The notes under the pieces were generated by a model. It worked only from the letters and a program-made list of their open reading frames with translations, ran no database searches and was not told the DNA's origin. The translations under genes and the position numbers were made by a program. DNA of 41,490 nt from Acidimicrobiia bacterium (GTDB lineage Bacteria; Actinomycetota; Acidimicrobiia; Spongiisociales; ZC4RG35): NCBI GenBank assembly GCA_015488325.1, contig WFOA01000042.1, positions 1 through 41,490 of the forward strand, in the 5' to 3' direction. Positions within the stretch are counted from its first letter, which is position 1. Each line of letters opens with the position of its first letter. Shown here in pieces: positions 23,859 through 37,276 of this stretch.

Positions 23859-23918
23859 GGGAAAGGAGGCTCGCGGACACCGAAGAGACAGGGCCGGCGC
23901 GCACGAGCTCGACGATGA

Positions 23919-24062
23919 AGCGCCAGACCTCCCCCGCGGGGAGGTGACGAGGAGGAAGGTGATCGAAGTCTTCGGCGGATGCCTTCCCGGCCGTCCACGG
24001 TCGTGACGAGTGGGAGCAAAGCCCGGGGGTGACCCCGGGGACAGAGGCCCACTCGATGTGGA
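23919..24062 (+). ncRNA. glmS ribozyme: glmS self-cleaving ribozyme/riboswitch
   Basis: The glmS ribozyme binds glucosamine-6-phosphate and cuts the mRNA upstream of glmS, lowering GlmS synthesis. Elements seen: cleavage site A23919|G23920 in AGCGCCAGA. P1 is ACCTCCCC/GGGGAGGT (23927-23934/23938-23945), then the joining segment TGACGAGG. P2 is GGAAGG/CCTTCC (23954-23959/23982-23987) enclosing ATCGAAGTCTTCGGCGGAT, whose GGCG (23974-23977) pairs with CGCC (23921-23924). P3 is CGGCCG/CGGTCG (23988-23993/23998-24003), and its loop TCCAC pairs with GTGGA (24058-24062). P4 is CGAGTGGG/CCCACTCG (24007-24014/24048-24055). P4a is CCCGGGG/CCCCGGG with a GTGA tetraloop (24022-24039). The family motif GGACA-AGG is also present. 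The stems differ in sequence from the Bacillus example I recall but keep the same pairings. Confidence 0.93.
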
Positions 24063-24078
24063 GCCGGCGGACGCCGGC
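24063..24078 (+). promoter_or_regulatory. Hairpin between ribozyme and glmS ribosome binding site
   Basis: GCCGGCG (24063-24069) and CGCCGGC (24072-24078) form a 7-bp stem directly after the ribozyme. It lies upstream of GAGGAG (24106-24111), which is 7 nt from the glmS ATG. It might insulate the ribozyme fold from the coding region, or be a leftover terminator-like stem without a T tract. Confidence 0.4.
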
Positions 24079-35364: not shown

Positions 35365-35847
35365 ATGCAGGTGCGCGCCGCCATGGGGATCGTGTTCGTC
35401 GCCGCGGCGTGCGTCGCCGGGCCTTCCATGGACCTGGCCGGGCTGGTCGACCAGCTCACCGAGCGGGGAGCGAGGGTGTCGGTGTTGGCGCCGGGCGACC
35501 GGCTCATCCCCTGGTTCGGGGGTACCCAGCGTCGCCTCTGCATCGACGACCGGGTGGTCTACGTGCTCGAATACCCCGACGTCGGATCCCGCCGGGCCGA
35601 CTCCGACGGGATCCCGCCCGACGCCAGCCGCATCGGCCCGGGCACCGTTGAGATCAACGGCAGGTGGAGGGTCTGGGCGGAGGGCCGCCTCCTCGTCTTC
35701 TACCTCGGCCTCGACGACAAGATCGTCGCCCGGCTCGACGGGTTGCTCGGTCCCACCATCACCCCCGACGCGCCGCCCCGAGGGCCCTTCGGCGGCGAAG
35801 TGGACCCTCGGGTCGCCGCCCGCGACTACTCCTGCGTGTCGCCGTAG
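35365..35847 (+). CDS. Hypothetical secreted or lipid-anchored protein
   Basis: The 160-residue product begins MQVRAAMGIVFVAAACVAGP, a short signal-like segment with Cys16 in AAAC, a weak lipobox. The rest is soluble (DRVVYVLEYPDVGSRRADSD; RIGPGTVEINGRWRVWAEGR; LGLDDKIVARLDGLLGPTIT). I recognise no family. TACGCT lies 8 nt before the ATG, so it may be nearly leaderless. Its last 22 bases overlap the convergent osmC gene. Confidence 0.6.
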   Translation: MQVRAAMGIVFVAAACVAGPSMDLAGLVDQLTERGARVSVLAPGDRLIPWFGGTQRRLCIDDRVVYVLEYPDVGSRRADSDGIPPDASRIGPGTVEINGRWRVWAEGRLLVFYLGLDDKIVARLDGLLGPTITPDAPPRGPFGGEVDPRVAARDYSCVSP

Positions 35848-36305
35848 ACCAGGCTGGTCGTGATCTCGATCGCGTCCCGGATGCTGCGGGCCACCGGGCA
35901 GTGGTCGGCGTGGAAGGTGTGCACCCGTTCCACGGTGTCCCGCTGGTCGGGTGTCACCCCGCGGAGCGTGTAGGTGACGTGGATGCGGCGGATCACGAGG
36001 ACCCGGCCGTCCTTTTCGATCTCACCGACCGCCCGGGCGGTGAGCTTTCCGTTGCTCGCATCGACGCCGCGCGCCTCCAGCGCGCCTCCCAGGGTCCCCG
36101 TCAGTCACCCGGCGGCGGCGGCGACCACATAGTCGAGGGTGGTGGCGTCCGGCGGATACCGATCGGGATCGATCCCGTAGTGCTCGGCGACCTCCGAGTG
36201 GACACCGAAGGTGATGGGTTCGGTGCGAGCCGGGAGGTGGGCCCGGCGGATCGGCCCGCCGATCCGTTCGACCGTCACCTCGGATCGGTAGACGACATCC
36301 GTCAA
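35826..36305 (-). CDS. osmC: OsmC family peroxidase, probable selenoprotein with in-frame UGA
   Basis: OsmC/Ohr proteins reduce organic peroxides with a pair of active-site cysteines. From TTG at 36305 (AGGAGG 6 nt upstream) the frame runs 66 codons (ending LDYVVAAAAG), meets UGA at 36107-36105, then continues intact for 92 codons (LTGTLGGALEARGVDASNGK and on to GDTQE) to TAG. Family members have AxxGCLTGT here, so UGA replaces the peroxidatic Cys (residue 67). The second Cys, C136, is present in HADHCPVARSI. A SECIS-like hairpin follows the UGA. Insertion of selenocysteine is the best reading, giving 159 residues. A nonsense mutation is the alternative. Confidence 0.85.
36069..36085 (-). promoter_or_regulatory. 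Candidate bacterial SECIS hairpin in osmC
   Basis: Reading the minus strand, 19 nt after the UGA, GCGCGC (36085-36080) pairs with GCGCGC (36074-36069) around the loop TGGAG. A G occupies the second loop position, 27 nt after the UGA. The bacterial SECIS model asks for an apical-loop G in the first two positions about 16-37 nt downstream. This stem would recruit SelB. Confidence 0.65.
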
Positions 36306-36433
36306 CGTCGGCCTCCTGTGTCGATGGCCCGACGGTACACGTCGACGCCCGGTCGCGCCCGCCGATCCCGGGCAACGGTGTGGGGGTGCGGTGCCGCTTC
36401 GGAGACGCCCCCCAAGGTGGGGTCGGCACCCGA

Positions 36434-37276
36434 TCATCCGAGCCCTGCGGCCCGGGCGTAGTCGTCGAGGAGCGGAAGCACCACGTCGGCTGGGGCCGAC
36501 GGCAGGCGGAACACGGCCCGGGTGATCCCGGCGGCGACGAGCCGTTCCAGGTTCTTCGGGGACGCCGCGTAGTAGGTCACCTCGAAGGCGTCGGGGTCAC
36601 GGCCCGCCTCTTCCAGCGCCCGGCGAACCTCGGGGAGCTGCTCCTCCCAGGCGTAGCGGCCCATCGGGATCCACCCGTCGCAGAACTCGACGAGATGGGC
36701 GATCGTCTTCGGCCCGGCGGCGGCGCCCAGCACGATCGGAGGATGGGGGCGTTGGAGAGGTTTCGGCCAGGACCAGCTCGGCTCCAGGTGGAGCAGTTCG
36801 CCGTCGAACGACGCCTCCTCTTCGGTCCACAGCGCCTTCATCATCAGCACCTTCTCCCGCACGAGGGCGCGCCTCCGACGGAAGTCGACCCCGTGGGAGG
36901 CCATCTCTTCGACGTTCCATCCGTAGCCGATGCCGAAGATGAACCTGCCGCCGGAGATCTGGTCCAGGGAGGCGACCGTCTTCGCCAGCCAGATCGGGTC
37001 CCGTTGGGCGACGAGGGTGATCCCGCTGGCGACCTTGAGCCGGGTCGTCACCATGGCGCAGGCGGTGAGGGCGACGTACTGGTCGTGGGTGCGCCAGTAC
37101 TCCTCGGGGAGGGGTGGGGCGTCGGGGACGCCGCCCCACGGGGTCTTCCGGGAGACCGGGATGTGGGAGTGTTCGGGGAACCAGAGCGACTCGAACCCCC
37201 GATCTTCGACGGCTCGGGCCAGCTCCGGGGGCTGGATGGCGGTGTCGGTGGGGAACATCATCACGCCGAACTGCAT
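36434..37276 (-). CDS. LLM-class F420-dependent oxidoreductase
   Basis: Luciferase-like monooxygenase-fold enzymes of actinobacteria usually use coenzyme F420. The 280-residue protein has MQFGVMMFPTDTAIQPPELA, GFESLWFPEHSHIPVSRKT, TLVAQRDPIWLAKTVASLDQ and GGRFIFGIGYGWNVEEMASH, the pattern of the Rv2161c-like F420 subfamily. GGAGGAGG lies just before the ATG, and TACCCT (37305-37300, minus strand) is a possible -10. Substrate is unknown. osmC follows about 130 bp downstream on the same strand. Confidence 0.88.
   Translation of the reverse strand: MQFGVMMFPTDTAIQPPELARAVEDRGFESLWFPEHSHIPVSRKTPWGGVPDAPPLPEEYWRTHDQYVALTACAMVTTRLKVASGITLVAQRDPIWLAKTVASLDQISGGRFIFGIGYGWNVEEMASHGVDFRRRRALVREKVLMMKALWTEEEASFDGELLHLEPSWSWPKPLQRPHPPIVLGAAAGPKTIAHLVEFCDGWIPMGRYAWEEQLPEVRRALEEAGRDPDAFEVTYYAASPKNLERLVAAGITRAVFRLPSAPADVVLPLLDDYARAAGLG

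Follow-up and report, generated by a model that had tools for sequence, protein, structure and literature searches.

As shown in Table 1, an OsmC-family gene with an in-frame UGA lies on the minus strand of the window (the whole 41,490-nt stretch of DNA that was analysed). Read from the TTG at 36305, its frame has exactly two stops, the TGA at codon 67 and the TAG at codon 160, with 66 codons before the UGA and 92 codons between the UGA and the TAG. An earlier note, made from the sequence alone, had described this layout, which stands; the strand, which it left unstated, is the minus strand. The good ribosome binding site that it had pointed out was also found, as ACAGGAGGCCGACG lies immediately 5′ of the TTG and has a GGAGG a few bases before the start. 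In the orthologues an ATG serves as the start codon, either at the position of the TTG or at a neighbouring codon. Standard gene callers lose such genes, or truncate or split them at the UGA, as had been anticipated. On the plus strand of the window, a glmS ribozyme/riboswitch match (111.4 bits) was found at 23908-24064.

Table 1. Coordinates of the features at the OsmC-family locus in the window.
Feature	Position	Strand	Details
OsmC-family selenoprotein gene (candidate)	35826..36305	-	TTG start at 36305, 159 residues with Sec67, TAG stop
In-frame UGA, codon 67, at the peroxidatic Cys position, read as selenocysteine	36105..36107	-	Homologue column
Candidate bacterial SECIS hairpin GCGCGCU-GGA-GGCGCGC, apical loop GGA	36069..36085	-	Fold, synonymous constraint, hairpin in all clades
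Codon 136, second (resolving) Cys in HCPVARS	35898..35900	-	Invariant in homologue alignment
Ribosome binding site region ACAGGAGGCCGACG	36306..36319	-	Sequence 5′ of the TTG
Luciferase-like monooxygenase (PF00296), upstream same-strand neighbour, context only	36434..37276	-	Also adjoins the gene in a same-genus relative

The predicted OsmC fold of the read-through protein

The read-through protein matches the Pfam OsmC domain (PF02566) with 49.3 bits, above the cut-off of 27.5. The AxxGC motif (A-A-G-C here) has the UGA at its Cys position and the second active-site Cys is intact, both as the earlier note had it. Neither the protein nor a profile built from 23 homologues had any match in a sequence search of the PDB, and a fold comparison was therefore needed. 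The AlphaFold2 model made with the 23 homologues has a pLDDT of 93.6 and a pTM of 0.87, and its best solved matches are OsmC/Ohr chains with Z scores of 11 to 15 (up to 15.2 over 138 residues). Judged from this model, the window protein has the OsmC/Ohr fold. Residue 67 is predicted to lie in the long central helix (residues 56-78), and residue 136 where the next long helix (residues 119-135) ends.

Conservation of the in-frame UGA

Is the UGA an ordinary nonsense mutation or a base-call error in a single assembly? It is an in-frame stop in a draft assembly, and a same-genus relative (G001) has lost part of the gene. On the other hand, an identical UGA was found at exactly codon 67 in about 60 other distinct homologous proteins from independent assemblies, mostly of Actinomycetota and also of bins named Chloroflexi, Acidobacteria or Myxococcota, and the 90 codons downstream of the UGA are intact and constrained. 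Among 99 genomes, counting the window's own, a search revealed 15 further full or near-full copies with a TGA inside each; an extra TGA counted in the copy of genome G071 is that gene's own stop. In genomes of named species, 19 of 19 loci have the TGA at the same codon; their records are named Acidimicrobiia, Acidobacteria, Chloroflexi, Thermomicrobiales, Poribacteria, Egibacteraceae, Nocardiopsaceae and Myxococcota, which are bin names as deposited, some of them doubtful in appearance. Going by the names of its nearest named relatives, the window would belong to the class Acidimicrobiia. The 396 sampled genomes of the phylum yielded about 40 TGA copies. In this phylum sample, every full match better than about E 1e-35 has the TGA, with no Cys form among them, and the matches of family f33, from E 5e-35 to about 1e-19, are without the TGA. 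No relative was found in plasmids. The same UGA in every close homologue found refutes an accident of mutation or sequencing, which is vanishingly improbable here; the earlier note had likewise argued against a random nonsense mutation, which would hit this position only rarely.

The flanks of the G001 locus align with the window at 79 to 80%. Window positions 36051-36429, about 380 bases, are represented there by around 60, so that the start, the UGA and the hairpin are gone. The lesion (L026, 1446-1507) is a clean deletion of the 5′ part of the OsmC gene, and an open frame of the C-terminal part persists. SelA and the tRNASec are kept in this genome. The gap reflects either a single-species loss or a fault of the assembly, and not decay after the UGA.

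In the aligned column of codon 67, 66 loci have TGA, seven have TGC or TGT, and one has GAC. A few of the 66 TGA loci are near-duplicates, leaving 61 distinct Sec proteins in the phylogenetic tree, the window protein included. The TGC and TGT codons belong to more distant homologues of one other actinobacterial family. Such an exchange between UGA and Cys codons, which the earlier note had named as a check on orthologues, is expected if the UGA encodes Sec. The tree of 69 proteins separates the Sec from the Cys forms at one branch (support 91/98), so that either state may be the ancestral one. Residue 67 (Sec or Cys) and Cys136 are invariant in the alignment, and Cys136 is present in all complete homologues that keep Sec or Cys at position 67.

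The GAC codon belongs to an OsmC paralogue (L084, in G423), in which Asp occupies position 67 and the second Cys is replaced by Ser. From the sequence, the joint loss of both redox residues is consistent with lost catalysis. Two divergent OsmC proteins (L085 in G141 and L086 in G281) of about 33% identity have the UGA at the same position in a UMMGT motif, while the sequence downstream of the UGA differs from that of the main group. They possibly constitute a second branch of Sec-containing OsmC proteins.

The conserved second half also bears on whether the UGA might be a programmed stop, with a functional 66-residue product and rare or regulatory read-through. It is true that the UGA of Sec genes competes with termination. 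However, the second half contains both the conserved second Cys and the conserved fold core, and the first half alone stops short of the catalytic residue. With this conservation and the Sec machinery described below, a regulatory stop was rejected as very improbable.

A candidate SECIS hairpin

The candidate hairpin begins 19 nt past the UGA. The first 13 codons after the UGA show much stronger conservation than the amino acid sequence requires: codon entropy at +1 to +12 has a mean z of -3.7, as compared with -0.4 at 73 other columns (Mann-Whitney p 7e-5), and a GCG codon is used at +8 in 26 of 28 sequences and at +11 in 25 of 27. A hairpin of -5 kcal/mol or better forms after the UGA in all 55 distinct sequences, and in each of them a G is found within the first two loop positions as drawn. 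Of eight pairs, the Sec forms keep 6.7 on average against 4.8 in synonymous shuffles, while the Cys forms keep 4.3 against 4.1. The hairpin energies are only modestly better than those of synonymous-codon shuffles (mean z -1.3); because the gene is so GC-rich, energy alone is weak evidence. RNAalifold pooled over all clades gave only a short, weak stem, for which a shifted register in some clades is at least part of the reason. When run per clade, it gave a clear hairpin in the group with the ULLGT motif and a weak one in the other group. The hairpin has the G-containing small apical loop that a bacterial SECIS should have.

Selenocysteine machinery in the genome and in other carriers

The earlier note had proposed a search for the Sec machinery, and all four components were found in the window's genome (2.89 Mb, 98.5% complete). 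The tRNASec scores 75.7 bits and is called by ARAGORN as tRNA-SeC with a TCA anticodon. SelA (435.8 bits), SelB (309.1 bits) and SelD (401.6 bits) all exceed their NCBIfam cut-offs, and SelB lies directly after SelA.

This complete machinery argues against the UGA being read as another amino acid through code reassignment or generic suppression. Such a reading would account for a UGA in the frame of a gene evidently translated throughout. However, Cys is found at the codon-67 column in homologues, and many homologues end in UGA as their own stop, so the UGA is not reassigned in those genomes. On the conservation and the Sec machinery, reassignment was rejected as extremely improbable.

Among Sec-form genomes of the phylum sample, 34 of 38 have SelA, versus one of five Cys-form genomes (Fisher p 0.0026, ignoring shared descent). 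Of 14 Sec carriers taken from other collections, 10 have a SelA match over the cut-off. The few Sec carriers found without SelA are mostly incomplete assemblies or assemblies of unstated completeness. At the order level, SelA is present in 86 of 99 genomes and is common with or without the OsmC gene, and is thus no specific marker there. Most order-level Sec carriers have a tRNASec match of 57 to 80 bits; matches of about 45-50 bits, which control genomes lacking a Sec system show as well, were left out.

The SelD gene of the window's genome (L029, G000:C55:6594-7517) has its own in-frame UGA, in the active-site motif GAGUACK. Together with the OsmC gene, it brings the UGA-containing selenoprotein candidates of this genome to at least two.

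Relation to known OsmC-like selenoproteins

The statement in the earlier note that Sec-containing OsmC-like proteins had been predicted from marine metagenomes is right: three sequences were described from the Sargasso Sea in 2005 (PMC1088965), and five with the motif UxxT in the GOS survey of 2008 (PMC2398784). Reviews of 2022 and 2026 also list OsmC-like selenoproteins (PMC9312934, PMC13188914). Like the Sargasso Sea and GOS family, the window protein has an OsmC domain (PF02566/COG1765), a predicted Sec at the position of the catalytic Cys, and a candidate bacterial SECIS downstream. Compared by the described motif only, the subfamily studied here differs from UxxT in having ULTGT or ULLGT, with G at +3 and T at +4. 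The window motif is U-L-T-G-T, with T at +2 and +4, and not at +3 as in UxxT.

NCBIfam has a model of the OsmC family curated to include Sec forms, NF041052 (OsmC_like_Se, OsmC-related (seleno)protein). The window protein scores 23.5 bits against it, where the cut-off is 95, and the best E-value among 23 aligned members is 4e-5; with these 23 members, no match to NCBIfam models was better than E 1e-6. Against the NCBIfam models of the named OsmC subfamilies, the scores of the window protein are also far under the cut-offs. It shares the predicted fold and the two conserved redox residues with the Ohr/OsmC organic hydroperoxide reductases (such as PDB 1n2f, 1qwi and 2onf), from which it differs by Sec in place of Cys and an identity below 20%. 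Three other matches in the window's genome are nearer to the NF041052 model, all without an in-frame UGA. One locus of this genome (L094, G000:C72:2080-3138) has two OsmC-like matches in one frame and scores 94.7 bits against OsmC_like_Se (cut-off 95), with no UGA.

OsmC-like selenoproteins are therefore a kind already known, while this branch seems to be uncatalogued in NCBIfam. As its score is far below the OsmC_like_Se cut-off, the window subfamily may be a separate, uncatalogued, Sec-dominated branch. Whether there is a distinct ULTGT/ULLGT subfamily that is essentially always a selenoprotein, spans several phyla and has its Cys members on a distant branch is an even bet.

Interpretation

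The conserved UGA at the catalytic Cys, the constrained hairpin straight after it and the complete Sec machinery together point to a selenoprotein, as the earlier note had suspected. I would put the probability at roughly 96% that the gene encodes a peroxidase of the OsmC/Ohr fold whose peroxidatic residue is selenocysteine, where both Sec insertion and activity are deduced from sequence. In the proposed mechanism, SelB carrying Sec-tRNASec would bind the hairpin as a bacterial SECIS and insert Sec at codon 67. Residue 67 presumably attacks organic hydroperoxides and Cys136 presumably resolves, in line with what is established for OsmC/Ohr enzymes. The selenenic acid formed on Sec67 would then be converted by Cys136 into a selenenylsulfide, which a cellular dithiol would reduce. 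Sec presumably gives a faster or more oxidation-resistant turnover than Cys.

OsmC-like selenoproteins get only a brief listing in the selenoproteome papers searched, and no NCBIfam model names the window subfamily. At this locus, an actinobacterial lineage has a clear and well-supported selenoprotein gene, and the subfamily to which the gene belongs normally has Sec and only exceptionally Cys. Its GC-rich SECIS candidate could extend the bacterial SECIS models, and the natural sister groups with Sec and Cys allow one to ask what Sec buys a peroxidase. Should the separate subfamily prove real, uncultured Actinomycetota would have a widespread class of Sec peroxidases without a name of its own, which differs from the catalogued OsmC_like_Se.
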